Virus record (IMG/VR): IMGVR_UViG_3300032245_000124 | Span: 1 to 38,323 of that record | Direction: 5' to 3' (one strand) | DNA length: 38,323 nt | Source of the DNA: a virus | Part shown: positions 21,293 to 38,323 of the stretch, piece after piece | Numbering within the stretch: position 1 is the first letter of the stretch | Layout of the letters: each line of letters opens with the position of its first letter | Position numbers and translations under genes: made by a program | Notes under the pieces: model-generated | Told to the model about the DNA's origin: nothing | Databases searched by the model: none | Seen by the model: the letters and a program-made list of their open reading frames with translations, nothing else

Positions 21293-21621
21293 TACGGTGT
21301 TACCTCAAGGCCATCAAGATTGCCGTCATTTGCGCCCTGCTCTGTTGAAATTACTAAGCCGCCGTAGTCACCCGTAGTCAGATCATTCGGGTCCGTTGCA
21401 ACACTGACGTCAGGACGAGGAAAACGAAGCGCAATCTTCTCGGTTTGACGCGCCGGAAGACGATACGGGTCCTTCTGATCGGCGCATCCTTGGTCACATA
21501 CGCGAAGACCGGGGAAGTTCGGGTCATTCGTCATCGATGCATAGGGCCGCTTGCACTTACACCTATCACAAATTGCTATAGCAAGAGTTTCAAGACCTCT
21601 TGTATCAAGAAATTTTGGCAT
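21292..21621 (-). CDS. Small zinc-ribbon virion-module protein
   Basis: 109 aa. Cysteines 18, 21 and 23 (CDRCKC) and 42 and 46 (VCDQGC) form a zinc-ribbon-like pair, and the following [11 protein letters not shown] is a conserved signature of small phage proteins found between tail adaptor and fibre genes (recalled). The ATG at 21621 lies 17 bp inside the HNH nuclease frame and has AAAGG about 10 nt upstream, inside the nuclease gene. The C-terminus is acidic and probably disordered. Function is unknown; a structural or DNA-contact role is inferred. Confidence 0.7.
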
Positions 21622-22174
21622 TATTGATTACCTTTGATACAAAGCCAATCGAACACCCTACCTCTATAACAATCTCGTCGTATTTCTTCCCCTGCATACG
21701 CAAATCTAAAACTTTTTTGGCTTTAATTGCAGATTTTTCTCTGATTATATTAGAGCTTGCTTTTTGAGCCTTTACTTTTTTCTCTGATATTGATTTTGCA
21801 TAATCATGATCAGAAGAAAACTTTTCCTTGAATTTTTTACCGGCCTCTTTTTGATACCCTTCTTTTCTATTTTTAGTCGCATTTGATCTAACGGACTTCA
21901 TATGAAAATCAAATTCAGGGTCAATAGCCCTACGCTCTTTAATTTTTAACTCTCTTTGCTTACTAAAAACAGAATAAACCTCTGGGTCTACAATTTTTTG
22001 TAACCAATTGCTTGCCCATTTATCTCTGATGTCTCCATACATTTTATATCGAACCAAATGCGCTATTGCGTGATCAATAGGGTGCAACAATACGAGATTT
22101 TCAGGCGCATTAGTTCCCCCCATGTATCGAGGAATTATGTGATGTTTGTGAAAACCTGAAAGTAGTTGATTCAT
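21605..22174 (-). CDS. HNH homing endonuclease with C-terminal HTH
   Basis: 189 aa. The HNH core lies at the N-terminus: FHKHHIIPRYMGG (H11/H12), then NAPENLVLLHPIDHAIAH supplying the Asn and His ligands. The middle is Lys-rich. Residues ~150-185 (LRMQGKKYDEIVIEVGCSIG) read as a resolvase-type helix-turn-helix that would read the target. The gene is AT-rich. Its start overlaps the adaptor stop as ATGA and its last six codons overlap the Zn-ribbon gene. It is likely a free-standing mobile endonuclease. Confidence 0.9.
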   Translation of the reverse strand: MNQLLSGFHKHHIIPRYMGGTNAPENLVLLHPIDHAIAHLVRYKMYGDIRDKWASNWLQKIVDPEVYSVFSKQRELKIKERRAIDPEFDFHMKSVRSNATKNRKEGYQKEAGKKFKEKFSSDHDYAKSISEKKVKAQKASSNIIREKSAIKAKKVLDLRMQGKKYDEIVIEVGCSIGFVSKVINNAKIS

Positions 22175-23241
22175 CTGGTATATGGCGAAATATTCGGCGC
22201 AAAATAAATTGGCGAGCGATCTCGCTCCTCTTGCTCAGCTTCGTAGAGGAATTTTTCGGCCATTTTCTCCAGATACGCAACCTTTTCCATCGGCACGGCA
22301 GGCAATTCAAGCGACATCCTGTGCGCAAGCATGAAAATCGTTGCCTCATACCATCTTTGAGGAACTTCAAGCTGATTTTGGAGCGCACCAACGTCCTGAA
22401 TCTGCCGCGAACACCATACAGTCATCTGAACGAAGGGGTCTGACGGCACCGGCCACAGATAAAGCTTCGGTTGCGGGATCGTCCGGTCAAACCAGAACTG
22501 AAATGGCTGGTTTGCAGTGAAGTTTTTGTTCGGAAGGTTGGTGTAATCGTCTCGGTTAAGCCGCGCCATCGTGATTTCAGTGCTGTTGTTGCCAACGTAG
22601 AACTCACGAACAATCAAAGTCGCACCGCCAGTCTCGCGCATGCGGTAGTAACGCACATTCTGGCCCGGTTCAATGTCATACCAGAGCCATTCATTGTTCA
22701 CCCAAGTCACCTCACCGGGGTCGTAGAGCGTAGACCACGTAGAACCATCGGTCGAATACTCCAAAACCACGTTGAACGTCCCGCTCACACCCGGCAAGAT
22801 GCCAATCGATCCGGCATAAATCTCGTTGTATTCACCAAAATCGATAGCGATGTTGCCATTCGGAGATGTCTGCGTCGTCATCGTATCGACGTCGCTGTCG
22901 AACGCATTCGCAACAACGCCGGATGATGTCGTGTAACCACCGGTCGAGTTCGGAGTCGGTCGATTCATGCGCCGATACAGCGCATTCAAGACATCAACAT
23001 AGCCGACAGGAAGATCGTAGATGTATTGATTGGCCTTGAGGCCGAAGATTTTCTTCTCAATCGCCCAATACTGGATGCCTTTGTTGATGAGGCTTGAGAG
23101 AAGGAAGAACAGGCTTTCCCTTGCGGACACCTGTTGCTCTGAGGTTAGCTCTTCAGCAAGCTTTCCGCAGCGCCGCGCACCGTGATCAATCATAGTCATA
23201 ACGTCAATCACGGTTGTTCCAACAGTATTACTGTAACTCAT
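22171..23241 (-). CDS. Tail adaptor protein with discoidin-like insert
   Basis: 356 aa. The helical start (VIDVMTMIDHGARRCGKLAE, RESLFFLLSSLINKGIQYW, LPVGYVDVLNALYRRM) and the end (VPQRWYEATIFMLAHRMSLE) are the split halves of an adaptor/gp4-like protein that contacts the portal. Between them, residues ~97-222 form a beta domain (NIAIDFGEYNEIYAGSIGIL, VVLEYSTDGSTWSTL, VRYYRMRETGG) with the pattern of F5/8-type C (discoidin) carbohydrate-binding modules. Its start lies in ATGA with the GIY-YIG nuclease. The core role is head-tail joining; the insert may bind surface glycans. Confidence 0.7.
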   Translation of the reverse strand: MSYSNTVGTTVIDVMTMIDHGARRCGKLAEELTSEQQVSARESLFFLLSSLINKGIQYWAIEKKIFGLKANQYIYDLPVGYVDVLNALYRRMNRPTPNSTGGYTTSSGVVANAFDSDVDTMTTQTSPNGNIAIDFGEYNEIYAGSIGILPGVSGTFNVVLEYSTDGSTWSTLYDPGEVTWVNNEWLWYDIEPGQNVRYYRMRETGGATLIVREFYVGNNSTEITMARLNRDDYTNLPNKNFTANQPFQFWFDRTIPQPKLYLWPVPSDPFVQMTVWCSRQIQDVGALQNQLEVPQRWYEATIFMLAHRMSLELPAVPMEKVAYLEKMAEKFLYEAEQEERDRSPIYFAPNISPYTR

Positions 23242-23849
23242 ACTGTTTCAGCCTTTCTTTTTGCGATTGCAATTGCATGGGCAGCGACTCTTTTTGCAAT
23301 CATTTCTGAAGACTGTTTTTTACCAAACATGGGATTTTTATCACCAATTTTTTGGTTACTTAAATGCTTTTTTTGTTCAACAGAAAGAGTCCAAGATTTT
23401 TCAGTGTTACCTTTATGCCTACCTTCAGACCAAGCCTTTTTTAATGCTTCCGATCTTTTTTTCTTTGTAATATCTGATGGAAATTTTCCTTTATGAGACT
23501 CAGACATTTTATTTCTTAATTCTTTTGATGGCATAAATGTTCCATCACCACCAGATGTTAAATTGTATCCATTTGGGGAAATTGTGTTGTGTTCTTTAAT
23601 CAACATAATTTCAATTGATTTTGCGCTTTCGGAACAGAAAGCATCCGCATAATGCGTAAACACAAAATTTGATACGCCGTATTTTTTTATGGCGGCGTGA
23701 AGCGCGGGATTCCTACCGTTTGCGTTTTTATGTGTATTCCAACGCTTCGATAGATTGTTTGTAATGCCAATATACTGCTTGCCATTGGCAACATTTGTTA
23801 CTATGTAAATCTTATATAGAGATTTACCAACAGTTCCAGACGTAGCCAT
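23238..23849 (-). CDS. GIY-YIG homing endonuclease
   Basis: 203 aa with AAGGA 8 nt before the ATG. The nuclease core is KIYIVTNVANGKQYIGIT, with candidate catalytic Arg36 and Glu80 (KSIEIMLIKEHNT), then SPNGYNLTSGGDGTF. The C-terminus carries NUMOD-like basic motifs (NKMSESHKGKF, KHLSNQKIGDKNPMFGKK). It is a paralogue of the nuclease at 12187-12792. It is AT-rich and ends in ATGA with the adaptor start. Its first eight residues, MATSGTVG, precede the conserved nuclease core and resemble the adaptor's own start MSYSNTVG, as if part of the adaptor's 5' end had been captured. Confidence 0.9.
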   Translation of the reverse strand: MATSGTVGKSLYKIYIVTNVANGKQYIGITNNLSKRWNTHKNANGRNPALHAAIKKYGVSNFVFTHYADAFCSESAKSIEIMLIKEHNTISPNGYNLTSGGDGTFMPSKELRNKMSESHKGKFPSDITKKKRSEALKKAWSEGRHKGNTEKSWTLSVEQKKHLSNQKIGDKNPMFGKKQSSEMIAKRVAAHAIAIAKRKAETV

Positions 23850-23860
23850 TTAACATCCTT

Positions 23861-24382
23861 TCACCAGCCCGGACAATTCCACCGCTTCATCGATGCTCTT
23901 GCCCTGCTGCCGCGATCACTTTTACGAGCGACTGGCTCCATTCTCGCGCAGAAGGAATCTCTGCGAGGACCGCCTTGCGGTTGTGGAGCCTTCAAGTTAC
24001 TTCCAGTCTCACGATTATACTTCTCGCGGCCTTTAGCCGTAAGGCCAGCGCCACGTTCTACCGGCATCTTTTCGCCGCGACCGACAGCCAAGCTCGGACC
24101 ACCATCTTTCATCTTGGCTGTTTTTGCTGCCTGCCGAAAATCTTTAGCAGATGGCGCACCTTCGCTACCAACTTTGCGCATCTTTTCGCCAGAACCGCTT
24201 GCGATTCTTTCGCGCTTTTTATGGATGTTTTCGTAAAGACCGCCACCCTTAAAATTCTTTTTCTCATCAGCTTTGGCAAACTCTTTGCCGACCTTTTGAG
24301 AGATGCCTACCTTCTTGGCAAACTCAGGGTTGTGCGCGACCGCTTCCATCAATCGATGCTGGGAAAGTGATTTGCTTGGCAT
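23861..24382 (-). CDS. DUF6321-type small virion-associated protein (composite)
   Basis: 173 aa, strongly basic. Three blocks can be seen: ~8-40 (HRLMEAVAHNPEFAKKVG), ~45-90 (GLYENIHKKRERIASGSGEK, then MRKVGSEGAPSAKDFRQAA) and ~110-173 (GLTAKGREKYNRETGSNLKA, then PQGGPRRDSFCARM and MKRWNCPGW). The last block matches DUF6321. As far as I recall the three blocks are often separate small proteins in other phages, so this looks like a fusion. It may bind DNA or nucleotides. No clear Shine-Dalgarno is seen; the start lies 2 nt after the preceding stop. Confidence 0.7.
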   Translation of the reverse strand: MPSKSLSQHRLMEAVAHNPEFAKKVGISQKVGKEFAKADEKKNFKGGGLYENIHKKRERIASGSGEKMRKVGSEGAPSAKDFRQAAKTAKMKDGGPSLAVGRGEKMPVERGAGLTAKGREKYNRETGSNLKAPQPQGGPRRDSFCARMEPVARKSDRGSRARASMKRWNCPGW

Positions 24383-25198: not shown

Positions 25199-25984
25199 TT
25201 AAACGCAACCGCCTTTTTTCCGCAGCCGGATGTTCTTCTGGAAGTTCTCTGCGCCCTTCTTCTCCATACGGAGAGGACGGTCGTAAGCATCCTCCAGCTT
25301 CTTCATCTCTTCTGCAGTAGGGGTAGATACCGATGCCTCTTTGCGCTCTACAGCCGCAGTGCGAGTCACCGGCATGCCACCATCAGCCTTTTTTACTACG
25401 CCACCCTTCTTGAAGGTGCCTGACAGCTTGCTGATACTCACAGGAGGAGTAGGCTTCTTCTTCCCCTGCGGCATCTCGACGGCGCGTCCATCGTCCTGCA
25501 CGGACCCACCGTCAGCAAACTTTTTTACAGCACCACCCTTCTTGAAGCCGCCCTGACCTTTGACAACGCCACCGGTCTTGTAACCACCTTGACCTTTGAC
25601 TACGCCACCGGTCTTCAGGCCCTTGTGGGCCTTCGATGCAGGCTTGTCGGCATGAGCCTTCAGTTCGGCTTTGGTAGCTTCCTTGGCATGCATCGCCTTG
25701 GATTCAACCTCGCCGCCCTTCTTAGCCATCATCGGAGCAGCCATGCCCTTGCGGCCCATCATTGCGCGGCGACGCTCAGCCAACGAAGGCTTTGCGGGAG
25801 CAGCGGCAGCGGGAGCGGGCATGCGCGAACGCATCGCAGGCATCGCGGGCATTGCGGACATATCACCCATCGGACCGCCATCCATCTTTTTGACCGGCTT
25901 GCAGACCGAACCACCTTTTTTGAGCTTCAGAACAACCGAAGGTTCGGTCGTCTGCATTTTCACCATCGGCTTAAATTGGCCCAT
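25199..25984 (-). CDS. KGG-motif repeat protein of unknown function
   Basis: 261 aa, low complexity and strongly basic. Seven copies of K-[KT]-G-G-x-V occur at residues 22-27, 88-93, 124-129, 136-141, 148-153, 192-197 and 256-261, the last being the exact C-terminus (RKKGGCV). Two further DGG motifs (ADGGSV, ADGGMP) follow some copies. A Met/Pro/Ala-rich stretch lies at ~40-87. No enzymatic motif is present. Shine-Dalgarno AGGAG lies about 9 nt before the ATG. The same motif marks domain boundaries of the polyvalent protein and precedes the C-terminal block of the 1318-aa protein, which suggests a shared docking role. It was not assigned to any family I know. Confidence 0.75.
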   Translation of the reverse strand: MGQFKPMVKMQTTEPSVVLKLKKGGSVCKPVKKMDGGPMGDMSAMPAMPAMRSRMPAPAAAAPAKPSLAERRRAMMGRKGMAAPMMAKKGGEVESKAMHAKEATKAELKAHADKPASKAHKGLKTGGVVKGQGGYKTGGVVKGQGGFKKGGAVKKFADGGSVQDDGRAVEMPQGKKKPTPPVSISKLSGTFKKGGVVKKADGGMPVTRTAAVERKEASVSTPTAEEMKKLEDAYDRPLRMEKKGAENFQKNIRLRKKGGCV

Positions 25985-25986
25985 GA

Positions 25987-26679
25987 TTAACGCTCCTTGG
26001 CAGCAAAGATGTAGTCAACGGTCATCGTCTTGGCGACAGCTTCACCGTTTTGGATCGCAAACGAAACAGTCATGTCTTCATCATCCGGCAGGTTGGTCAC
26101 AACAGACGCACCGCCGATCACGCCATTGACAAAGTATTGAATGCTCGACACGCCATCGTAGTAGAAGCCAAGGCTAATGAAGGTATTACTCACCATCGTA
26201 GCTACAGCAGAAGTCGTGGTTGCGGTGTTGTTCTTCTCAACCAACAGGTCAACGGTAGCAACACCGTCAGCTTTGATAAAGAACACGCCATCAGAGACAT
26301 CAAGCGGCGACGCGTCGGTAATCTGCAGGCCGACGACAACATCCGATTGCGTAGCATCACTGACCTTGAGTCGGGCTTCAAAGAACAGCTTCTTGCCAAC
26401 TTCAAATCGGAAAGACTCGCCCACCTTCTGCAACGCAACCAGATCGTTGTCGGCAGCGGTGTTGGTCAGCAGGAGCAGACCACCATCGCCATCCGTCAGA
26501 GCCTGAGTCGCGCCAGCTTGCGTCTCAGTCACGATCCAATTGGCAGCAGTGTAGTAGTCGAAATCTTCGAAGTAAGTGTGAAAAAGAGTCGGCACCGGGG
26601 CGATGAAGTCGGCAAAGGGCGAACCCTCGCCTACGTTCGTAACGCCTGACGGGAACCGAGTATTAGTGATATTAGGCAT
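25987..26679 (-). CDS. Beta-sandwich virion protein, possibly lectin-like
   Basis: 230 aa from the ATG at 26679 with GAGGAG about 8 nt upstream (a TTG two codons before is rejected). The central region has jelly-roll-type alternation (ESFRFEVGKKLFFEARLKVS, SDVVVGLQITDASPLDVSDG, ISLGFYYDGVSSIQYFVNGV) typical of concanavalin/LamG-like folds. It is encoded directly after the major capsid protein, which suggests a capsid-surface or decoration protein that could bind glycans. The fold is inferred from the pattern only. Confidence 0.6.
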   Translation of the reverse strand: MPNITNTRFPSGVTNVGEGSPFADFIAPVPTLFHTYFEDFDYYTAANWIVTETQAGATQALTDGDGGLLLLTNTAADNDLVALQKVGESFRFEVGKKLFFEARLKVSDATQSDVVVGLQITDASPLDVSDGVFFIKADGVATVDLLVEKNNTATTTSAVATMVSNTFISLGFYYDGVSSIQYFVNGVIGGASVVTNLPDDEDMTVSFAIQNGEAVAKTMTVDYIFAAKER

Positions 26680-26698
26680 AACCAAAACTCCTCAGTGA

Positions 26699-26724
26699 AC
26701 GGGAAGGGTTTTATCCCCTCCCGT
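26699..26724 (-). promoter_or_regulatory. Strong hairpin without U-tract after capsid gene
   Basis: On the minus strand ACGGGAGGGG-ATAAAA-CCCTTCCCGT forms a 10-bp stem with one G-U wobble and a six-base loop. It starts about 9 nt after the capsid stop and ends about 20 nt before the next ATG. No T-run follows, so full intrinsic termination is unlikely. Protection of the capsid mRNA 3' end or partial attenuation is more plausible. Confidence 0.6.
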
Positions 26725-26732
26725 AATTCCCG

Positions 26733-27647
26733 TTAGATACCCGGAGTGCCGTAAAGGGCGCGCCAATCGGTGAAGCCAGTGTCGTAACGCTCAGTTGCCT
26801 TGTAACGCATGGAGTCGGTTTCGAAATCACCTTCCATCGTTTTTTCAAGCTTCCGACGCATCATCAGCTTCATACCTTCCGGCGCATCAGTCTGCACCCA
26901 CCATGCGGTAGGCGAAGTCAAACGCGACAGAACAGCAGCGCCCTCATCCAGCAGCCCAATCGACTTGATCGGGTTGATGTCGTTGTTGGCGTTACCGGCG
27001 CGAAGGACGCTCTTCAGCAGAACTTCCGCTTGGAATACATTGCCCGGAGCAACAACCAGTTGCTTCGGCACCAGACGGATTCTCTTGCCGTTGTTGTCCA
27101 CAGCGTTACGGATTTGAATCAGCATCTGCTCCAGCGACGTTTGCGACAGGTTCGCCGCAGTCGCCAGCAGGTTGCTGGCAGTTCCGTTCACAATCGGATG
27201 ACTCACGCTGTTCAACGCAACGCCGTCGCCGCCCGGATAGGCGCTGTTGAAGCCACGGCTGATGACGTTTGCGCACAGCGTCTCTTTTGTCTCAATCAGG
27301 GACTGAGCCAAGTGCTTGGCGTAGACCTGACCGATACGGATGTGATCGCCGTCCTCGACCAGAACTTTGGTCAGCGCGAATGCAAGGCCGTAGACCTTGT
27401 AAACGTAACGCTTCAGGAACAGGACGCCGCCTTGCTGGTAAGTGACCGGGGTGCCGTCCGGGAGTTCCGGAGCAGCGCCAAAGCCATACAGCACCGGCTC
27501 TTCGTGGTAGTTGCGGGGAATGCCGTTCTGCTCGCGGAAAACACGCGACCATTCGTCGGCACGTTGATCGTAAATTCCGTCGAAACACTCGTTGAGGATA
27601 GGCTCAACAATCGAACGGAAGTCTGTGCTGCGCATCGGGGCTGCCAT
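26733..27647 (-). CDS. Major capsid protein
   Basis: 304 aa. The N-terminus STDFRSIVEPILNECFDGIY and DQRADEWSRVFREQNGIPRN, the middle YVYKVYGLAFALTKVLVEDG and GQVYAKHLAQSLIETKETLC, and AWWVQTDAPEGMKLMMRRKL near the end are features of HK97-fold capsid proteins of this phage type (recalled). It has the strongest Shine-Dalgarno in the head module (AAGGAGGG, 6 nt from the ATG), fitting its high demand, and it is followed by the hairpin at 26699-26724. Its place after scaffold and a probable decoration gene supports the call. Confidence 0.85.
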   Translation of the reverse strand: MAAPMRSTDFRSIVEPILNECFDGIYDQRADEWSRVFREQNGIPRNYHEEPVLYGFGAAPELPDGTPVTYQQGGVLFLKRYVYKVYGLAFALTKVLVEDGDHIRIGQVYAKHLAQSLIETKETLCANVISRGFNSAYPGGDGVALNSVSHPIVNGTASNLLATAANLSQTSLEQMLIQIRNAVDNNGKRIRLVPKQLVVAPGNVFQAEVLLKSVLRAGNANNDINPIKSIGLLDEGAAVLSRLTSPTAWWVQTDAPEGMKLMMRRKLEKTMEGDFETDSMRYKATERYDTGFTDWRALYGTPGI

Positions 27648-27660
27648 TTTTTAGCCCTCC

Positions 27661-28233
27661 TTAAATTGCGTTCACAACAGCAGTAAACTGATGCTTACTG
27701 ATTGTTGCGCGAACGATGGTGAAAGCGTCACCCCAAGCATTGTCGGGGTAGGGAGCGATGTCGATGATGCGCATCTGTGCCGTGGCACCAGCACCAGCTA
27801 GGGTCGTGGACAGAGTAGCTTGCGACAGGCCGGTTGTGGTCGATCCTGCGGTCGTGTTTGAAAGATTAGCTTGGTCGCCAATGGAAGTTTGCGCCAGCGA
27901 GCCTTCAGCTTGAATCTCATACACGATGTTGGGATCGCTGTAGAAATACGCCACGCACGAACCGGTCTGGAATGCGGTGCTTGCAGGCCAGTAGTTCGAT
28001 ACACGGCGACGACCGGTAGTGTCAGTCCACTCGACGCCAGCAAAGGCACCAATGAACGAATCACCAGCAGCAGCGACTTCAATTTGACCACTCGTATTAA
28101 ACTTGACGGGTTGCCCCTTCAGAATGTCACTCGCATAGCCACTAAGAATCCCATTAGCAAGCGCCACAGCGCGATCCAGACCGGAAGGGTGGAACGCAGG
28201 ACGCATACCGAAGGGAGTAGAAAGTGTAGGCAT
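27661..28233 (-). CDS. Probable head decoration protein
   Basis: 190 aa with AAGGAG 7 nt before the ATG. It opens TLSTPFGMRPAFHPSGLDRA, followed by LANGILSGYASDILKGQPVK, a sequence pattern common to proteins encoded next to capsid genes. The rest is beta-rich (GAFAGVEWTDTTGRRRVSNY, GSCVAYFYSDPNIVYEIQAE). It precedes the capsid gene and its stop overlaps the capsid Shine-Dalgarno. A capsid-stabilising or decoration role is inferred from position and composition. Confidence 0.65.
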   Translation of the reverse strand: MPTLSTPFGMRPAFHPSGLDRAVALANGILSGYASDILKGQPVKFNTSGQIEVAAAGDSFIGAFAGVEWTDTTGRRRVSNYWPASTAFQTGSCVAYFYSDPNIVYEIQAEGSLAQTSIGDQANLSNTTAGSTTTGLSQATLSTTLAGAGATAQMRIIDIAPYPDNAWGDAFTIVRATISKHQFTAVVNAI

Positions 28234-28250
28234 AATTTACTCCTTAATTG

Positions 28251-28790
28251 TTAGCCCTGAAAAATCGGGGCAGGTATCGGTTTGTCAATTTCGCCAAGTC
28301 CTTCGCCTTCTATCGCGCCCAAGCGTTTGCCTGAACTGTCGCGGCCTTGAATCTGCTCAGCTTGAATGCGAAGCTTGTTCGCATCTTCAAGTGGTGCGTG
28401 GTGATGCACTTGCGCCATCACATCCTGATAAACATCCATCGGGAGTTTGTAGAGCAGCATTTCATTGCATGCAACAAAACCCACATGCTCGCCAGCCTTT
28501 ACGCGGAAATTGTCGAACCCGGCCACTTCTTCTGCCTTCACAGGCGTGTATCCGAGACGCATCCGCTTGTCGATGCCGTCATAGCTGTTGGTAGTCGATA
28601 ACCAGCAAAGGTGCCATCCCGGAATCTCCGGAATACTTGGCAGCGCACTTTGTGTCCACTCTTCCTTCCACATCTTGCGACGTTCTTCGGCAGAGACGAA
28701 CTGATCTTCTGGGGCCGCACGTTCAGCATCTTCCGACGCACGATTGGTTCGGCCACCAGCAGAAAAATCTTTCTTAATTCGGGAATCCAT
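28251..28790 (-). CDS. Conserved head-module protein of unknown function
   Basis: 179 aa with AAAGGAG about 7 nt upstream of the ATG. It has a basic disordered start, then WKEEWTQSALPSIPEIPGWH, followed by LCWLSTTNSYDGIDKRMRLG, and a domain with GEHVGFVACNEMLLYKLPMD. The central block is shared with proteins found between scaffold and capsid genes of related phages (recalled). No catalytic motif is evident. It may assist capsid assembly or form part of the connector. Confidence 0.6.
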   Translation of the reverse strand: MDSRIKKDFSAGGRTNRASEDAERAAPEDQFVSAEERRKMWKEEWTQSALPSIPEIPGWHLCWLSTTNSYDGIDKRMRLGYTPVKAEEVAGFDNFRVKAGEHVGFVACNEMLLYKLPMDVYQDVMAQVHHHAPLEDANKLRIQAEQIQGRDSSGKRLGAIEGEGLGEIDKPIPAPIFQG

Positions 28791-28793
28791 GTT

Positions 28794-29870
28794 TTAGCTC
28801 CTTTGAGTGTTGTTTTTTGCTTCGTTCATGTAGCGACGGACCATACGTTCACGCGCCTTTGTGTCATCCCACATTCCGGCGTCTTTAATCGCCTTCACAT
28901 GCTCGGCAGAAAGAATGAATCGATTCTTCTTCCCGCTCGATGACGAACTTTCGCGTCCTGATCCCGTAACAACACTCCTCGGTCTGCTTTGCCGCGCACC
29001 TTCTGTGCGCCGATGAGAATTCCCATCCTCGCCCTCAGTATAGTGGTGCGGCAATCGTTTCTGCAAGCGTGAATCAAGCTCTTCCCAATACTCAGGAGTT
29101 TTGGGGTCCCAGCCCTCTTTTGCCATGCGACGATCAACCGCCAAAGCGATTGCGGAATCCTCGTCACTCTCGGCTGGGTCATACCACGGATTGCGCTCCA
29201 TCCACGACGCAGCAAGTCGTTGCAGCGTCTTGTCCGGACCGGCAGACGCCGCCCTCGGATTGGATGTAGCAGCTTGCCTCTTCAGATTGGTCAATGCCTC
29301 ATGAGCGCGACGGGCCTCATACAGCAGGTCCTGCGCATCAGTCATGGCGTCGCCGTCCTGATTCTTCGTGGCATCGGCAATCTTCATCTTGGCGTAGTTG
29401 ATGCGGACCTCTTGGTCCTCGATTGCCTTATCAATCCGCCCAAGCTCAGCGCCGTGTGTGCGCTGCTCTACAGACTGAAGTCGCTGAGACAGTTCTTGGT
29501 TCTGCTTCAGCAACTGATTGAATTTTAAGTCTTTTTCTTTCTGCTGCTGACGCTGGAACTGCTTTTTCGCCCGACGCCGGTCGCGCTTCGCTTGGCGGAT
29601 CGCTTCGGTGTCGTCTTCGTGGTCGTCGTCTTCCGCCGCGACTGACGATTCTGAATCGCCTGCTCCGGCATCGTCACCAGACCCGTCACCGTCATTGGCA
29701 GAGGTGTCGCCAGCTTGACTATCGCCTGCTTTATCGCTTGCCAGATTTTCATCGTTGCTCTCCTGTGAGCCTTCAACACCATCAACTACGATGCTGCCGT
29801 CAGCCTCCTCGATAATGCTCAGAGGGGCGGCAGTTTCTTCCTGTGCCGCAGCCTTGTCTGTTGCGTTCAT
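28794..29870 (-). CDS. Scaffolding protein
   Basis: 358 aa with AAGGAG 5-6 nt before the ATG. The N-terminal ~90 residues are very acidic and disordered (Asp/Glu/Ser/Gly). A basic turn (AKRDRRRAKKQFQRQQQKEK) is followed by a long coiled coil (LLKQNQELSQRLQSVEQR, RIDKAIEDQEVRINYAKMKI). The C-terminus is basic and Ser-rich and ends in a helix. This composition and the position just before the capsid genes are typical of podoviral scaffolding proteins. It should direct capsid assembly and then leave the head. Confidence 0.8.
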   Translation of the reverse strand: MNATDKAAAQEETAAPLSIIEEADGSIVVDGVEGSQESNDENLASDKAGDSQAGDTSANDGDGSGDDAGAGDSESSVAAEDDDHEDDTEAIRQAKRDRRRAKKQFQRQQQKEKDLKFNQLLKQNQELSQRLQSVEQRTHGAELGRIDKAIEDQEVRINYAKMKIADATKNQDGDAMTDAQDLLYEARRAHEALTNLKRQAATSNPRAASAGPDKTLQRLAASWMERNPWYDPAESDEDSAIALAVDRRMAKEGWDPKTPEYWEELDSRLQKRLPHHYTEGEDGNSHRRTEGARQSRPRSVVTGSGRESSSSSGKKNRFILSAEHVKAIKDAGMWDDTKARERMVRRYMNEAKNNTQRS

Positions 29871-29879
29871 GTCGTCTCC

Positions 29880-30320
29880 TTAGATGAAAGCTTTGATTGC
29901 CATCGGATCGCCAGTGAGCTTTCCGATAATTTCATGATCATTCAGAACCATGAAAAGTGCTGGGTCTTCAAAGTCGTCATCGCCGGGGACGCGAACTTCC
30001 CAACGATCACCGCCCCACTTTGGGACGCGAATGAAGTCACCCACTTCACACCATGATCCCTCAGGCCATGACTCCATCGTGTCGCGCTTCTTGAATGCCA
30101 GCGGACCGATGTCAATGACCTTTGCAACCATGTTGTTCCACTTCTCAGTCTCCTTCGTCTCTTCGACAAGGATGATTCCTGCAGATGTTGCTTTCTTCTT
30201 CGTGCGACGAAGCTGCACAAGAATTCTTGCGCCTAGCGGTTTAACTCCGGGATCAACGCTCGGAAATGCCCAAGCAATCTCAGCCGCGTTACCGGCTACC
30301 GGTTTACAGTTGTCGTTCAT
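29880..30320 (-). CDS. GroES-like co-chaperonin
   Basis: 146 aa from the second of two adjacent ATGs, which has AAGGAAG at better spacing. The Cpn10 domain begins VKPLGARILVQLRRTKKK. The mobile loop contains TSAGIILVEETKE, where IIL stands in for the GroEL-binding IVL tripeptide, and AKVIDIGPLAFKK and GDFIRVPKWGGDRWEV complete the barrel. It probably replaces host GroES on host GroEL for folding the capsid protein. No GroEL is in the window. It overlaps the preceding small gene by 17 bp. Confidence 0.85.
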   Translation of the reverse strand: MNDNCKPVAGNAAEIAWAFPSVDPGVKPLGARILVQLRRTKKKATSAGIILVEETKETEKWNNMVAKVIDIGPLAFKKRDTMESWPEGSWCEVGDFIRVPKWGGDRWEVRVPGDDDFEDPALFMVLNDHEIIGKLTGDPMAIKAFI

Positions 30321-30492
30321 CATCTTCCTTCAATAAGTTATTCAGGATATTCAGAGCCTTTTCAAGCCCTTGATGTTCGTAGACCAGCTTCAGGTAAGCC
30401 TCGTAATTCGCTGCATTTCCAGCAACCAAGGATGCGGCTATTTCAGCCTGCCTTACTTTGACTTTGCCTACGAAGTCTTCGACGTATCGCAT
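30304..30492 (-). CDS. Small helical head-module protein
   Basis: 62 aa with AAGGA about 8 nt before the ATG. It is predicted all-helical (KVKVRQAEIAASLVAGNAAN, YEAYLKLVYEHQGLEKALNI) with an acidic tail. Small proteins of this kind are frequent next to portal and GroES genes (recalled). It overlaps the start of the GroES-like gene, so coupling is likely. The role is unknown. Confidence 0.65.
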   Translation of the reverse strand: MRYVEDFVGKVKVRQAEIAASLVAGNAANYEAYLKLVYEHQGLEKALNILNNLLKEDDERQL

Positions 30493-30504
30493 GATTTTTC
30501 CTTT

Positions 30505-30765
30505 TTAGACTTCCCTCCAGTCTTCTGACATCAGATCGGTTTGGCTTGCGAGCCAAGGAACAATCATTCCGTCAGCAGTTCGCATATCAATATGCGCATG
30601 GTAGTTGACGACAGTGCCTTCAGGATAAATACCCAAAAGCGGTGGACGGTTCACAGTGAAGGTAGAGCCGGGGACAAGGAACAAAAACATTCCCTTTCCG
30701 TTCCAGCCCTCTCTGCAAACCTTTTTGCCCTCTTTGATAAGGGCAAGCGCATGTCCGAAGTCCAT
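30505..30765 (-). CDS. tad2: DUF2829 / Tad2-like anti-Thoeris protein
   Basis: 86 aa, the usual length of the family. Signature blocks are DFGHALALIKEGKKVCREGW, NGKGMFLFLVPGSTF, NRPPLLGIYPEGT and HIDMRTADGMIVPW, then SQTDLMSEDW. DUF2829 members include Tad2, which sequesters the cyclic-ADP-ribose-type signal of Thoeris immunity. The ATG lies 3 nt after the preceding stop (TGACCGATG) without a clear Shine-Dalgarno, so it is probably translated by coupling. The family call is strong; the anti-defence function of this copy is inferred. Residues that bind the signal cannot be judged here. Confidence 0.85.
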   Translation of the reverse strand: MDFGHALALIKEGKKVCREGWNGKGMFLFLVPGSTFTVNRPPLLGIYPEGTVVNYHAHIDMRTADGMIVPWLASQTDLMSEDWREV

Positions 30766-30768
30766 CGG

Positions 30769-30906
30769 TCAGGCGTTTTTCTTGTCAACACCCTTGCCCG
30801 AAGGAATCTCAGGCTGGGGAATCGACTTACCATCAGTTGCACCTTGCGCCAGCCGCTTGTGTTGCGGAATGGCTGCGCTTTGCTGCTCTTTGTCACCGGT
30901 TGCCAT
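30769..30906 (-). CDS. Very small hydrophilic protein
   Basis: A 45-codon frame with an excellent Shine-Dalgarno (AAGGAGG 5 nt before the ATG) that overlaps the portal stop codon. The product is hydrophilic and Lys/Gln/Gly/Pro-rich (ATGDKEQQSAAIPQHKRLAQ and a tail ending GVDKKNA) and likely disordered. It fills the gap between portal and the Tad2-like gene and would couple the latter's translation. No family is recognised. Confidence 0.65.
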   Translation of the reverse strand: MATGDKEQQSAAIPQHKRLAQGATDGKSIPQPEIPSGKGVDKKNA

Positions 30907-30915
30907 ATGGCCTCC

Positions 30916-33417
30916 TTATTGAGTCAAACCACGTTGCACTGCGTTTTGCAGGGCCACAACAGACTCTCCCTGCTCCTTTTTCAGTCTTGCCGCCTCAAGC
31001 GTCAATCCCAAAGTTTCCATGCGTTCTTTCGTGAGATTGTTTTCAGTGTTCATTGCCACATCAATCTCTTGGCCTCTCGACTTCAGCGCATTATCGCTCT
31101 GATCTTTCTGAGCGCGAAGGCCCAATTCAGCTTGATCACGCTTAGCCCTGCGCTCAGTCTCGGCCATCGAAGCCTTCAGGACGGCATGCGCATCCGGCGT
31201 CAGTTGCGGCTCCGGCTTCAGTTGCTGAACGATCTGCATCAGTTGCTGCAAGATCGGCATGAACGCCTGCATGTCTTCATTGGCGTCGATGTTCACATGA
31301 TCCGCAGCAATCGCCATCGCCTTGTCAATCTCCGGCACAAGCTTGCTCTCAGCGTATTTCTTGTCGCTGATCCCAGCGGGGACCGTGACGTAGCTGTTCA
31401 TCTTCTGCGTATACCAGAGCATCATGTGCTGCTTCACATGCTCAAGGACCTTCGGCACAAAGGCCGGCGCGATGATCGGATTAGAGCCAAACATCGGATT
31501 CTGCGCGAAGGACAGGTGAGCGGCGATGTGCGCAAGATGATCCTGACGCGGGTAGGCCACAGCAATCCTGCCCATAGCCATCGCAGAATTCTCATCAGCA
31601 GCATGCATCTCAATCGGCTTGCTGTATTCCGGCATCAGTTCCTGAATGTTCGGGATTTTCATCTGACGCAAGGCTCTGGCAATCGCAGCCCGCTTACTCA
31701 TGACGTCCGGATTCTTCTCAGCCAGCGCAAGCACAGCCTGCGTCTGGGCCATCCGTTGCGTCTCGCTGAAGATGTGCGGGTCAGATACCGGCAGGATGTC
31801 CGTGTTGCGCTTGAAGTCATCCTTGCTGATCGGCAGATCAATCACAACGTCGCCGCGCTTCTGCTCATCCAGATACCAGCGGTTGATACGCTGCAGGATC
31901 ATCAGTAGGCGGCGCTGCGAGTTATGCATGCGGGCATGGATGCTGGAGAATACAGCCGCACCCTGCTCGATTAGAGCCTGCGTCGTGCCTACCGGCGCAT
32001 TGCTGTTGATGTCGGCAATCTTCTCTTCCGCCGTGGTCACAACACCTTTGGCCGCACTCGACAGCCAGCCAAGCAGTTGGAACAGCACAGGGCTTGGCGC
32101 ATTGAACGGGAACGGCATCGCAATCTTGCGGATGTCGTCTACTCCCGGAGCGCCCTCAATCTCCGCGACCTGAGTGACTTCGACCTGCTGGGACTGTCCG
32201 GAGATTTTGGCTCCCTTGAGCTTGAGCATAGTGGCCGCATTGTTAATGTGCGCACTATCAAGCAAAGCACGAAGAGCGCCAGTAAGAGCAGCAGACATAC
32301 CACCAATAAGGTGGGGCAGGCCAATCGCATACGCACCTCGCCACGGAATGAATTTATACTCTACGATCCAGTCCATCTTCTGCATCGTCGTATCTTCTTC
32401 CTCCCAATTGCGATACAGGCCAAGAGTGCTGTTGTCGGCCTCATCAAGCATCAGGATATATGGAGCGGACTCACCCTTCGTCTTCGGGTCATCCTCAAGC
32501 TCCAGCCATGTGTAGATGTGATACACGCGACGCGGCACATCGTCGGCGTCTTGGAACTTCTTGCCTTCAATCTTCTCGTTCGCCTTGGCTGCTGCAGTCT
32601 GCTCCGGCTCCATCGTTGACTTGATGTAGCTGGAGTCGATATACAGGCCACGCGACACACGGTTCTTGAACTCCCACTCCGAGATGTCCTGCTGCTCGGT
32701 CACGCGCTGGGCTGTGTAGAAGTTCGCCGCCGTATAGGGCAGCAGAATGTTGTCAATCGGAATGAACTCAGCGACCGGACGCTTCTTCTGGTCGTCCCAA
32801 TAAAGCTTCAGGAACTGACTGCCACCCAGCGGCAACTGCGTCAGCAACTGCTCCTGCTCGTCACGGAACTCCTCGATCTGGTCGGTCAACTGCCAGTTCA
32901 TGTAGTCGCGCTTGCGGCTGGCAATCTCTTCCTTCTCGTCGTTAGTCTCACCGACGATGTTGATCCTTGTCGGACCCTCAGGCGGGAACATCTCCTTCGA
33001 GGCGCGGGCAGCGAAGTCGATGCAAGCCTCGGCCATGATCGGATGCACAACCTTCGAAGCGCCGGAGAATGAAGCGCCACCGGGGGCATCATTACCCATA
33101 CCCGTCCGACGCAAGCCTTCCTCGTATTTCTTGTCGCGCTCTTCCCTTGCGTCGCGGTCCTTGTCGATCAGGTCGAAGTAGCGGATGGCGATCTTGTCCA
33201 GATCGAATGCGTCAACCTTCTCAGCCAGATTGCCATAGAAGTCATCGTCATCCTCGGCCTCATCCTCACCTACCGTGACGACTACAGAGCCATCAGCAAG
33301 CTCCTCAAGCTCTTGCTCACCATCCTCGACCTCGACCTCGACGTCAATGTCATCAGGCAAGTCGCTTATCCCTTCGATGAACCGGTTAAATTCAGGATCA
33401 ATTGGCATCTCAGCCAT
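30916..33417 (-). CDS. Portal protein
   Basis: 833 aa. The ATG at 33417 has AGGAA about 8 nt upstream and lies within the last codons of the polyvalent gene. After an acidic N-terminus (~1-75), ASFSGASKVVHPIMAEACID followed by FAARASKEMFPPEGP is a hallmark of portals in this phage group, and QFLKLYWDDQKKRPVAEFIP belongs to the wing/stem region. The C-terminal ~150 residues are helical and Gln/Lys-rich (barrel or crown). It should form the dodecameric DNA entry ring that also nucleates capsid assembly. The long C-terminal helical part is typical of podoviral portals. Confidence 0.85.
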   Translation of the reverse strand: MAEMPIDPEFNRFIEGISDLPDDIDVEVEVEDGEQELEELADGSVVVTVGEDEAEDDDDFYGNLAEKVDAFDLDKIAIRYFDLIDKDRDAREERDKKYEEGLRRTGMGNDAPGGASFSGASKVVHPIMAEACIDFAARASKEMFPPEGPTRINIVGETNDEKEEIASRKRDYMNWQLTDQIEEFRDEQEQLLTQLPLGGSQFLKLYWDDQKKRPVAEFIPIDNILLPYTAANFYTAQRVTEQQDISEWEFKNRVSRGLYIDSSYIKSTMEPEQTAAAKANEKIEGKKFQDADDVPRRVYHIYTWLELEDDPKTKGESAPYILMLDEADNSTLGLYRNWEEEDTTMQKMDWIVEYKFIPWRGAYAIGLPHLIGGMSAALTGALRALLDSAHINNAATMLKLKGAKISGQSQQVEVTQVAEIEGAPGVDDIRKIAMPFPFNAPSPVLFQLLGWLSSAAKGVVTTAEEKIADINSNAPVGTTQALIEQGAAVFSSIHARMHNSQRRLLMILQRINRWYLDEQKRGDVVIDLPISKDDFKRNTDILPVSDPHIFSETQRMAQTQAVLALAEKNPDVMSKRAAIARALRQMKIPNIQELMPEYSKPIEMHAADENSAMAMGRIAVAYPRQDHLAHIAAHLSFAQNPMFGSNPIIAPAFVPKVLEHVKQHMMLWYTQKMNSYVTVPAGISDKKYAESKLVPEIDKAMAIAADHVNIDANEDMQAFMPILQQLMQIVQQLKPEPQLTPDAHAVLKASMAETERRAKRDQAELGLRAQKDQSDNALKSRGQEIDVAMNTENNLTKERMETLGLTLEAARLKKEQGESVVALQNAVQRGLTQ

Positions 33418-36400
33418 ATTTGCGCTTCCTCTGTTTATTCAGTGTGGCAAGACGCATGGCGTCCAGTGATGGAGCGGATTTTACTCTTCCGCCATTTTTC
33501 ATGTTGTTTGGATCACCATATTGCTTCAGCAGGTTCGTCAATTCGTCTTGCGTTACATAATTCTGCGCTTCCGCTCCAGCCGCTTTTATTTTTGCGGCCA
33601 GATCACTTTCTGTATCAATTCTCACCAATCCGGTATTTTGAAAATCACCAACATCACTCCATTGACCGCCTCTAACAAAATCCTGAACGAACGGCAGGTA
33701 TTTGTCGGCAGGTTTTTTGTTTCCTTTGCCTTTAATTTGATGGATGCTAGAAGGCAAATATTTTTGTAATTGCGACAGTACATGATTTAATGCAACGTCC
33801 CTATCTGCATCTGGATTATCAATTATATAATCCATAAGTTTATTATTAATTTTGTCTTTGTATTTGTATTGCAATTCTTCAGAAACATCCTGCGGAGGTT
33901 TTACCTCAATCGTCACATGCGGCTGGCCTTTAGAATCACGAAGGCTGTAGATTCTGCTGCTGCCTTCCTCAACATCAGGGCAGTAACCACCAACACAGTG
34001 GCCCATCTGTTCGCCTTCGTATTTCAGAGCATCTTCAAGCGCCCTACTTGGATTACCAGAAGTCTCAGGGTGTCGAGTGTAGATATTCTTTATAAGACTT
34101 GGCAGGTCAGCACCAAGAACGACATCACCATCCGGCGATACGGTTCTCAGCGAATTGCCCTTCATTACAGGCTCAGACCATCCTTTAGGAATTCCAGTGG
34201 GCATATCCGGTGTCTTCAGTTCTGCCCACCGATAACCTTCGGGATATTCCTTGAACGTAACGGTCGCTGGATTGTTCGCCCTAACAAGATCAGCCTCAGC
34301 CTTCTGTGCAGCCCTCCATTCATTGATCTTTGCCACTCGCTCAACAGCCTGCTGGACTGACAGCCTATCCAAAGATTCCGGCCTCAACTGAAGCTCTTTT
34401 GGCAAGCCTGATCGCGGGTTAATGGCGTTTTTAAGCTCATCAACCAAGTGGTCAAAGTGAACATCCCTTGGCAAACCTGTAGCGTAGTAGACCTCGGCTT
34501 CAGGATCGACTTTCTTCAGCCAAGGGTTTTGGGCGACGATATCTTCATCAAGGGAGCCGTGGACATAAGAGCCTGCCGATGCAGGCTTGATCGACCTATC
34601 GGTGATGTCTTCCCAATTCTTTGCGGCCTCGCTTTGCCCCATTCCCTTTGCTGGCATTCCAGCACCAACTCTCTTCGCCATAAGCTTCGATGCGTCGGAA
34701 GCTTGAAAAATCGACAGAAGCGGATCATCCGGATCATTAACCGCAGTGGGATTGAAGTGGATATTACCCTTCTCAGCCAAAGCTCTGATAGGGTCCTCAG
34801 GAGTTCCCATATCGTTTTTGATGTATCGCGTTAGCTGCTTATCAATCCAGTTATTCAACGCGCTGACTTCGTTCTCGTTAGTCCTTCCGCCACCAAAGTT
34901 TATGGCGCTGAATCGTTTAAGCTCTTTCAATCTGTCTTCAATGCCACCAGCCAGCCAGTTACCACCCTTCGGCTTTATGACATGAGAGGCAGTCGCCTGC
35001 GGGCCATAAGCAGCGGTCGCTGCCTTCATTACATCAGTCGGCAAATGCTTGATGGCGTTAGAAACTCGACTAGCAACAGGAGCAGCAAACGACGCAACAT
35101 CAACAGCCCTCGGATCGATGCTTGTTGTCATTCCGCTACCAGATAATAGCCTGCGATACGGATAGTCTTCCGTCGCATCTCTGGGTGTTCCGGTGTAGTC
35201 CTGAAGTGCAGTCCCAGCAGATTTCAGAGGCTCAGACACAACCATGTTCATCAGGAATGACTTGATAGGACTGTTGCCTTCCTGACCGACAATTTTCATT
35301 GCCTCCTCAAGCTTAATACCAAGCCTTTCAGCGGTCTGACCTAACCTGCCCAAGAATTCTTGTCCGGGCTTTGATGGTGAAGCTTTAATTGATCCGCCTT
35401 CTGCTATGCGCTTGACCTGACCGCCTTTTTTGTATCCGGCATCCTCAAGTCGCTGCAAAGTCTCCCTATCAATTTCTTGGGTAACTTTGTTTCTATCCCA
35501 ATCCATCACTCCGGGCTTTCTGCCCTTTGCTTTCTCAATGCGACTTACAAAGTCATGCATCAAAAGTTCTCTAGGAGTCATCTCGTAATGAACTCCAACA
35601 TCCGCGCCATGAATCATTTCCGGAAATGCACGATGCAAGTCAGGGCGGAATGAAGTATCGCCTGATATTTGGAATGCTCTTGGACCAACCGATCCAGTTG
35701 GTGCGTCAGCAAGCATAGGCTCAGTTGATTTAGAGATTATTTTGTCGTAATCAATAATCCGCCCCTTCTTCCCTCCAACACCTTCGCCACCCAAAACTTC
35801 AGCGATAGCGGCCCTTCTTGTAAATGTATTGCCCTCATTAAATAGATTCGATGTCGATACATCAAAGCCTTCATCAAACAAAGGCCGTCCAGCCTCATCC
35901 ATGTAAAACTTTTGGTTTGTCAGTCGCTCATTGTATGCATCACGCAACTCAGGAGTCAGCCTACCCTCTTTTACAGCCCTATTGAATGCCTTGCGTATGT
36001 CGTCGTAAACAACTTGATTGGATCGGTGCATTTGCGCAGAACCAATCTGAGGAGTGAATATCACGCCCGGAAACTCTTTCTGCAAATTGACCATCTTCGA
36101 AGCTGCTGCCTTACCTTTATTTGCCCACACGACATTTTCATAAGCTGGGTCAACGGTAGATAACCAAGGGAAAAGCGGGCCACCCTTCTTTGATCCGGGA
36201 CCGGGTATTGCAACCATTCTGTCGGCGGGGGCAGTCAAGGCAACCCTTTCGCCAAGGAACTGCTCAAAAGCCTTTGATGCCTTTTTAGGCTCAGGAAGTA
36301 TCTTGGGTATTGTGCTTCTTACATCCGCCTTATCAGCAGGCTTTAATGCCTTTGCGGCCTTCTTTGCAATCTCGCCAGCAATGCTTCCACCTACCGCAAG

Positions 36401-38323
36401 CCTCATCGCATCTAAAGATACGCGGCCACCTTTAGCCCTGCGCTTGACAATAATGTCTTCGGGCGCAACGTCATAGCCAACATTACCTTCATTATCACCA
36501 AGAGGAAAGTTTTCAAGACGCTGCTCAGGAGTTAGGTCGATACGGTTTTGCGCTGCTCTAGCTTCAGCCTCTCCAGCAAGTCTTTTATAGTAAAGGTTAG
36601 CTGCTTGAGTTTGAAATTCCCTGTCCATCTGCTTTGCCACTTTAGGAATAGCTTTTTTGTATTCCTCGTATATTTTCATTGCATCGCCAAGCGGCAAAGA
36701 TTCAAGGCCAGCACTTTTGACATACTCTTCGTATGGCGTAGGCTCAAGGGCTTGCTTTCTCAGATCATTCAGAATTTCATGAGCCTCTTTGTGCTGGAAG
36801 GCCATCTCCGGATTACCGCCTCGACCAAAATCTTCGATCCCTTGAATGGCGTGCTGCATTTCATGAACAGCACTGGATCGAGGATTATCTCTTAGTCCGA
36901 GATCGTAAACATTAACTAGCCCCGGATCGCTGCCCCCAATTCCCTCTAGGTATGAAGCTTTGGTTGAGCCAGAGCGTCCGCCCTGAAGAACATCCATTCC
37001 AGAAAGGTTCGGATAGGCTTTATAAAGCTCAGGATGCTCAAGGGCAAACTCCGCACGATTCCCCCGCTCGACTCTATATTCAGGTCCACCCTCCATCGTC
37101 CTGCGTTCCTTGATGTCCTTCGCTTGCTGCCGCATATCCTTCTGCGCTGCGGTCAGTTGCTTCGGGAATAGATCAGGGTAAAGCTTGCTCTCAGCAATCC
37201 TTCCCTTGATGTCTACCTCCTGCTGCTTCATCGAATCAGCAAGCTCCCTCATCTCCTTCTCGCCACGGAACTTAGACCCTACGTCAGATATCTCCTGACG
37301 CAACGAACCATCAGGACTACGGAACGTGCCAGTCTGCCTCCAGATATCTGCAGGAGCAACTCCAGCCTTCTCAAGCTGAACAGCCTTTGCCGCAGCAGGC
37401 TCGTCCCATATTTTTGATTTCTCGCCAATAAAGATTTCTGTCTTCTTATTTGGCTCAAAGCCCTTTGCATACTTTGCCAAGCGACGAGCAACACCGCCAC
37501 CAGCCTTGCGGACTGCACCGCCTTTCTTCATCCGCTCCTTGATGGTCAGGATGTCCTCGTTGCCGGGGAAGACTACGAAGTTGCTGGTGCCTTCTCCTGC
37601 ATCGCGGCTTGCTTCATCGAGATACTTGACGCCGGGGACGCCGCGCTCTCTCAGGTATTGGCTGGCCTGCTCTGCGCCGGGATATGCGGCGGTCACATCC
37701 TTCGCCTCATCTGAAGCAGCAATCATCTGATACAAAACACTGCCGGGGGAATCGTATTTCTTAGCAATGGACATATCCTCGGCGGATAGCCTTCCCCTCA
37801 TGATGTCTTGGATTTCTGCGGGCTGCTGGCTGAATGGCTTGTCCCAATCAATCATCTTCGCAACATGCTCGTCGGGAAGGTCTACTTTGTAGATGTGGCC
37901 TTTTAATTCAAGTGGCTTTGCAAAATCTCCGCTTTCTAAAAAAGCCAATGTCTTTTGAAGAAGTTCTTTTTGAGGATGATCTGGCTCGTTTGTTAATACA
38001 AAACGAACGTCATCAGCAGCATATTTTGGATCACCAGCAAGCGACGCTAATCGTTGAGCGTTTGCATGAGCGTTTAGTCTTCCCTGATTGGCAATGTCAC
38101 GGTTAGCAAGATTTTTTGCATAACCCTCTCCCGTTCCTCTAGCTTCAGCCAGATAATGTCCGTGACCATAAGCCTGCGCACCCTCACCAGTTCCAATCTT
38201 TGTCGGATCGAACTCACCCAGCGGATTCTTTTTGGTCGGCGGGAAACGATGCGGGCTTCCATGCCATGCATCCATCGGCAGCGCCATGCCTGTGCGCATC
38301 ATGTATTGCTCGGCAAGCTCTCC
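33410..38323 (-). CDS. Giant polyvalent protein (ART, HExxH, PcfJ-like), 5' partial
   Basis: At least 1630 aa. The frame is open to the window edge (GELAEQY precedes the first Met), so the start is missing. Numbering from the Met at 38302: ~12-250 is an ADP-ribosyltransferase-like domain (AWHGSPH, GTGEGAQAYGHGHYLAE, then GVKYLDEASR and NFVVF). Residues ~270-610 form a domain with DIWRQTGTFRSPDGS and the metal-binding motif HEMQH at 480-484, resembling large-polyvalent-protein domain 23. Residues ~650-950 are unrecognised. Residues ~1410-1580 are PcfJ-like (GHCVGGYCPDVEEGSSRIYS, IKGKGNKKPADKYLPF). Four K-x-G-G-x-V motifs separate these blocks. Polyvalent proteins are thought to be injected with DNA and to act early on the host; that role is inferred here. 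Confidence 0.8.
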   Translation of the reverse strand, partial: GELAEQYMMRTGMALPMDAWHGSPHRFPPTKKNPLGEFDPTKIGTGEGAQAYGHGHYLAEARGTGEGYAKNLANRDIANQGRLNAHANAQRLASLAGDPKYAADDVRFVLTNEPDHPQKELLQKTLAFLESGDFAKPLELKGHIYKVDLPDEHVAKMIDWDKPFSQQPAEIQDIMRGRLSAEDMSIAKKYDSPGSVLYQMIAASDEAKDVTAAYPGAEQASQYLRERGVPGVKYLDEASRDAGEGTSNFVVFPGNEDILTIKERMKKGGAVRKAGGGVARRLAKYAKGFEPNKKTEIFIGEKSKIWDEPAAAKAVQLEKAGVAPADIWRQTGTFRSPDGSLRQEISDVGSKFRGEKEMRELADSMKQQEVDIKGRIAESKLYPDLFPKQLTAAQKDMRQQAKDIKERRTMEGGPEYRVERGNRAEFALEHPELYKAYPNLSGMDVLQGGRSGSTKASYLEGIGGSDPGLVNVYDLGLRDNPRSSAVHEMQHAIQGIEDFGRGGNPEMAFQHKEAHEILNDLRKQALEPTPYEEYVKSAGLESLPLGDAMKIYEEYKKAIPKVAKQMDREFQTQAANLYYKRLAGEAEARAAQNRIDLTPEQRLENFPLGDNEGNVGYDVAPEDIIVKRRAKGGRVSLDAMRLAVGGSIAGEIAKKAAKALKPADKADVRSTIPKILPEPKKASKAFEQFLGERVALTAPADRMVAIPGPGSKKGGPLFPWLSTVDPAYENVVWANKGKAAASKMVNLQKEFPGVIFTPQIGSAQMHRSNQVVYDDIRKAFNRAVKEGRLTPELRDAYNERLTNQKFYMDEAGRPLFDEGFDVSTSNLFNEGNTFTRRAAIAEVLGGEGVGGKKGRIIDYDKIISKSTEPMLADAPTGSVGPRAFQISGDTSFRPDLHRAFPEMIHGADVGVHYEMTPRELLMHDFVSRIEKAKGRKPGVMDWDRNKVTQEIDRETLQRLEDAGYKKGGQVKRIAEGGSIKASPSKPGQEFLGRLGQTAERLGIKLEEAMKIVGQEGNSPIKSFLMNMVVSEPLKSAGTALQDYTGTPRDATEDYPYRRLLSGSGMTTSIDPRAVDVASFAAPVASRVSNAIKHLPTDVMKAATAAYGPQATASHVIKPKGGNWLAGGIEDRLKELKRFSAINFGGGRTNENEVSALNNWIDKQLTRYIKNDMGTPEDPIRALAEKGNIHFNPTAVNDPDDPLLSIFQASDASKLMAKRVGAGMPAKGMGQSEAAKNWEDITDRSIKPASAGSYVHGSLDEDIVAQNPWLKKVDPEAEVYYATGLPRDVHFDHLVDELKNAINPRSGLPKELQLRPESLDRLSVQQAVERVAKINEWRAAQKAEADLVRANNPATVTFKEYPEGYRWAELKTPDMPTGIPKGWSEPVMKGNSLRTVSPDGDVVLGADLPSLIKNIYTRHPETSGNPSRALEDALKYEGEQMGHCVGGYCPDVEEGSSRIYSLRDSKGQPHVTIEVKPPQDVSEELQYKYKDKINNKLMDYIIDNPDADRDVALNHVLSQLQKYLPSSIHQIKGKGNKKPADKYLPFVQDFVRGGQWSDVGDFQNTGLVRIDTESDLAAKIKAAGAEAQNYVTQDELTNLLKQYGDPNNMKNGGRVKSAPSLDAMRLATLNKQRKRKYG

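Follow-up and report, generated by a model that had tools for sequence, protein, structure and literature searches.

Only in a few phage systems is it known how the head is loaded with effector and ejection proteins. In T4, the capsid targeting sequence (CTS) is N-terminal and is removed by the prohead protease. This one short conserved sequence is common to anti-host proteins that are virion-internal and otherwise diverse (PMC3012670). The HK97 fold is common to encapsulin shells and the capsids of phages, and the cargo-loading peptides of encapsulins are short, terminal and carried on unrelated cargo (PMC7355545). Polyvalent proteins of phages have been inferred to be packaged and injected, as set out by Iyer et al. 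2017 (PMC5512222).

The window analysed here, a 38,323-base IMG/VR virus record, belongs to a large environmental phage group that looks to mark probable capsid-internal proteins with one peptide, apparently an undescribed cargo tag. The consensus improved from 497 sites in relatives is the seven-residue peptide [YFML]-[KA]-x-G-G-x-[VAIM], and no published account of this motif was found in the open-access literature. As with the T4 CTS, one short peptide is shared across unrelated families, which here are probably virion-internal, judging from gene family and position. In contrast to the CTS, most tags lie at C-termini and the ends of domains, they recur several times, and a separate many-copy protein bears them too. 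Their placement differs from the N-terminal one of T4: among 201 copies in proteins at the polyvalent position, 28 lie within 50 aa of the N-terminus and 45 within 50 aa of the C-terminus (10.7 expected for each), the rest being internal. No head-maturation protease family was present among the window proteins scanned. Set against the terminal loading peptides of encapsulins, copies are in excess near the C-terminus but most are internal; the sequence differs, and the shell is no encapsulin but a phage capsid protein of the Phage_capsid_4 / Mu gpT-like family, near whose gene lie those of the portal and terminase. Most likely, the tag would work in the manner of the T4 CTS or an encapsulin loading peptide while being a member of neither class by location or shell.

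The locus resembles the polyvalent systems of Iyer et al. 2017 in that LPD23 and PcfJ occur beside the portal gene and relatives carry ART-PolyVal and zeta-toxin domains. It differs in that the tag travels with the domains, no such motif having been found in text searches of that paper (PMC5512222). Lambda gpH likewise has a C-terminal GG region, with FATGGFTG / YATGGYVG near its C-terminus, and it is in the C-terminal region that the 1318-aa ejection/tape-measure-like protein of the window (4480-8436, minus strand) weakly matches a tape-measure PHROG (at 1224-1289); gpH differs in being a tail protein with one or two copies, and is not known to have tagged partners. A double-glycine (C39-type) leader, which has a hydrophobic residue at position -4 from the GG cut, is not indicated: K or A takes that position at 94% of the 497 sites, a figure partly biased by sampling because sites were chosen with K, A, R or M there.

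The minus strand carries all structural genes, and with them every tag, tagged protein and domain of the window located below. The head block runs in the order polyvalent protein (1630 aa, 33410-38302), portal protein (30916-33417), GroES-like protein, acidic scaffold-like protein (28794-29870), two conserved proteins and major capsid protein (26733-27647), followed by the 261-aa protein (25199-25984) and then the tail and ejection genes. The capsid protein is never tagged. The portal protein of the window is untagged, and the tag occurs in 2 of 101 relatives against 1.4 expected; the scaffold-like protein is untagged in the window, while 11 of 91 relatives bear a tag near residue 35-58. Among named relatives, MW202545, at 61% identity, and Caulobacter phage RW, at 45%, have the closest portal proteins, ahead of DSL-LC04 and Pelagibacter phage HTVC027P. 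For neither the capsid nor the portal protein was a relative of solved structure found. Matches in prokaryote genomes numbered three, two of them in Betaproteobacteria MAGs, which is too few for a host to be named. The GroES-like co-chaperonin gene (29880-30323) within the head block is present throughout this phage group.

The sequence-only reading had counted 12 copies of K-x-G-G-x-V in three proteins, and for the strict form this total was exact: seven in the 261-aa protein, including KKGGCV at its C-terminus, four in the polyvalent protein and one in the 1318-aa ORF (YKVGGEV, 4819-4839; strict core 4819-4836). Two entries for the polyvalent ORF required correction. The copy listed near 36420-36440 is not strict, since 36419-36436 encodes A-K-G-G-R-V with K at -1, and a fourth strict copy, KAGGGV at 37490-37507, had been overlooked. 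Over 5000 within-protein shuffles, copies exceeded expectation about a hundredfold in the 261-aa protein (7 vs 0.05, p = 2e-4, the floor) and the polyvalent protein (4 vs 0.06, p = 2e-4); the single copy of the 1318-aa protein (0.03 expected, p = 0.03) is weak alone. The core as first proposed, K-[KTVNA]-G-G-x-V, describes a real motif, but K does not define it. In polyvalent proteins the K/A position is occupied by A 179 times and by K 65 times, so that K is dispensable, and the third position of the consensus includes K, T and D ([YFML]-[KA]-[KTD..]-G-G-x-[VAIM], 497 sites). Many copies show a second element, DxM..L or FIK, after the tag, but its counts are small.

Across 24 phages or loci the consensus motif was found 185 times, compared with 18.9 in shuffled, 21 in reversed and 27 in swapped controls. 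A second, distinct portal clade gave 151 copies against 10.2 expected, and the Caulobacter RW clade 19 against 4.0, with no polyvalent gene seen in the seven RW-clade loci assessed. Mechanically called ORFs were grouped into 81 protein families, each with four or more proteins from related phages, so that family counts are not independent trials. No copy was present in 66 of these families, among them the major capsid protein, GroES, TerL and tail fibres. The 65 members of the 261-aa family together held 462 copies against 4.8 expected, a count that is partly circular because the consensus was learned on that family; this does not apply to the portal-adjacent polyvalent proteins (135 copies in 60, 3.6 expected) or the scaffold-like family (11 copies in 91 members, 0.0 expected). 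Copies were also concentrated in a few small late-protein and ejection-type families, whose counts are likewise not circular. The observation that one motif recurs in unrelated proteins thus stands, with the refinement that it is concentrated in few families. The reading had also offered background frequency or lack of conservation in orthologues as grounds for rejecting the motif; when this was examined the motif survived, given the empty families and the 4-10 strict-core copies kept by all 261-aa relatives examined. Replication in two clades and the domain-shuffling comparison described below constitute the stronger evidence. The motif is absent from CRP-901 and QDWS535, which have the same capsid family, and occurs at background only in T7, P22 and crAss001.

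Synonymous codon usage at the motif equals background, and 338 copies are specified by 291 distinct 21-nt encodings, from which it follows that selection acts on the peptide and not on the DNA. A DNA scan with one long variant, YKKGGxVKKYA, recovered this capsid lineage or fragments too short to place, the remaining match being one 39-kb contig in which no capsid gene was detected. The scan fits a putative lineage-specific partner.

The 261-aa protein is made up largely of the motif. Its near-invariant N-terminus, MGQFKPMVKM.TTEPS.xLKLKKGG in alignments of relatives (25910-25984), is a possible anchor, and the start MGQFKPMVKM is invariant in relatives. In order, the tags are KKGGSV (25904-25921), KKGGEV (25706-25723), KTGGVV, KTGGVV and KKGGAV in a 36-bp (12-residue) tandem repeat (25526-25615), the A form FADGGSV (25499-25519), KKGGVV (25394-25411) and the terminal KKGGCV-COOH (25202-25219). 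Relatives, found at no fewer than 577 IMG/VR loci and yet without an entry in Pfam or PHROGs, usually end in KKRGGxxC. Cysteine is the last residue in 53 of 61 complete relatives (L006-L085), where it is usually the sole Cys, and is second to last in the window. Counting all 65 members, a last-residue Cys is seen in 56, compared with 1.3% of other ORFs. AlphaFold2 gave no confident structure (pLDDT 54, pTM 0.17), scores that are consistent with disorder. Being composed of the motif, the protein is a multivalent tag bearer and not an obvious pocket that binds the tag.

LPD23 and PcfJ of the 1630-aa protein score above their Pfam cut-offs and the protein adjoins the portal, in keeping with a polyvalent protein. 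A tag stands after each domain unit. Domain A (37538-38302), for which the sequence suggests an ART-like fold, is followed by the pair MKKGGAV-RKAGGGV (37490-37531); domain B, the LPD23 region (36431-37447), is separated from domain C (35453-36382) by AKGGRV-SLDAMRLAVGGSI (36380-36436); YKKGGQV (35414-35434) follows domain C; and the PcfJ-like domains D and E (33509-35392) are followed near the C-terminus by MKNGGRV (33482-33502), then SLDAMRLA and a basic tail. Elsewhere the domains are reordered or occur alone: domain B precedes domain A in L128, and L070 and L006 have domain C as a separate protein with its own tag. Of 45 non-identical shuffled cases, 27 had the tag after the domain end, whereas the rate in windows drawn at random from those proteins was 7.3%. 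The GG after domain C is invariant in nine homologues, which mostly share 29-42% identity with the window, and the sequence beyond it is not conserved. AlphaFold modelled domain C at low confidence (pLDDT 48.7), and Foldseek returned no significant match for it. Of 124 non-redundant proteins at the polyvalent position, 92 were tagged and 32 untagged. A tag is missing from the homologous ART domain of Sulfitobacter phage phiGT1, and no copy occurs in the 1721 residues covered of the archaeal virus vir555 protein. Zeta-toxin and ART-PolyVal domains were found in tagged polyvalent relatives at L303:3538-9588 and L246:4551-9953.

Selection on the motif is at the level of protein, it is restricted to few families, and its sites are the domain ends and termini of otherwise unrelated proteins. 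Judging from gene family and position, the tagged proteins, namely polyvalent effectors, ejection proteins and sometimes scaffold, are probably virion-internal; for ejection and scaffold proteins an internal place follows from what they do. We give about an even chance to the motif being a short linear cargo tag that recruits virion-internal proteins to the procapsid or holds them there. Under such a mechanism the tag would bind one common partner, most likely the capsid inner face, the portal assembly or the scaffold, and cargo would be recruited to or retained in the procapsid through it. The major capsid protein may be proposed as a candidate receptor by inference only. The 261-aa protein, perhaps anchored by its invariant N-terminus, could link or concentrate cargo as a multivalent bearer, and every effector domain would carry its own tag, so that domains could shuffle and fuse with packaging kept. 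Against this reading stand the motif-free phages CRP-901 and QDWS535, the untagged proteins at the polyvalent position, and loci where tagged polyvalent proteins occur with no multi-copy protein visible. The docking function suggested by the sequence-only reading is the best supported, and is sharpened here to proteins probably internal or ejected and to sites at domain ends and C-termini. The dedicated hub that accompanied the suggestion is only half borne out, the 261-aa protein being a bearer; moreover, of 46 loci that have a polyvalent protein, 13 showed no multi-copy protein. Co-occurrence of the two proteins is modest (33/13/6/11, p = 0.018, relatedness not corrected). Strict co-dependence of the two was not found. 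Were the cargo tag real, sequence alone would allow prediction of the cargo injected by a large and little-studied group of environmental phages, the shuffling of polyvalent proteins with delivery kept would be explained, and the tag could be used as a loading signal for engineered capsids.

An unlikely alternative is that the motif binds itself: the tagged proteins and the many-copy disordered protein would form a condensate or fibre inside the capsid that collects all sticker-bearing proteins with no separate receptor, and effector domains would become packaged by gaining a sticker. The many copies in a protein of no confident structure would suit this, as would the general resemblance of an aromatic or hydrophobic residue, GG and V to kinked beta stickers and the terminal, usually sole Cys of complete 261-aa members, which could cross-link; tagged proteins are nevertheless also found at loci lacking a visible multi-copy protein. 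Cleavage by a protease at GG, which would release the effector domains of the polyvalent protein one by one, is rather improbable. It accords with the motif lying at domain boundaries, and where copies stand at domain ends inside a protein, cleavage of a polyprotein would explain them no less well than tagging. The motif is, however, also located 10-30 residues from C-termini, at N-termini and in stand-alone single-domain proteins, the V/A/I after GG is conserved, and the 261-aa protein would be shredded. Moreover, among the head and late proteins tested the only peptidase family match was an M15 endolysin, none being a head-maturation protease. The processing signal, offered earlier as the other option, is for these reasons the less likely.

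There is a small chance that the repeats are basic elements that bind or condense DNA in the head. The 261-aa protein is Lys-rich and its motif 12-mers have a mean net charge of +2.0, but 53% of the polyvalent-protein copies have a net charge of zero or below, with K mostly replaced by A, and the scaffold-like copies lie in acidic stretches. We attach a slight probability to a flexible handle that aids unfolding and threading through portal and tail with no role in packaging: ejection and tape-measure-like proteins do bear the motif, lambda gpH (YATGGYV) included, whereas scaffold-like proteins, not expected to be ejected, are tagged too, and the ejection proteins of T7 and P22 and the cargo genes of crAss001 are not. 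Least probable, and very unlikely, is a neutral linker or functionless DNA-level repeat. A single tandem array of 36-bp units in the gene of the 261-aa protein speaks for it, but the shuffled, reversed and swapped controls, the diversity of encodings at background codon usage and retention across clades all speak against it. Codon usage rules out a DNA-level repeat, and the same three controls rule out a composition artefact.

Several further features of the neighbourhood were recorded. Three endonuclease-like genes interrupt the structural block (12187-12792, 23238-23849 and 21605-22174); on inspection of their sequences two resemble GIY-YIG and one is HNH-like. A 173-aa protein (23861-24382) contains DUF6321, its N-terminal segment matches PHROGs of virion structural proteins, and near-motifs rich in GG, KDGGPSLAVGRGEK, are present in it. 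In sister proteins from the same neighbourhood (L328, L344, L346, L351, L358, L359, L361, L366, L367 and L372), YKKGGxVKKYAxGG precedes a C-terminal element that is conserved and resembles RADGCAxRGKTRGK.
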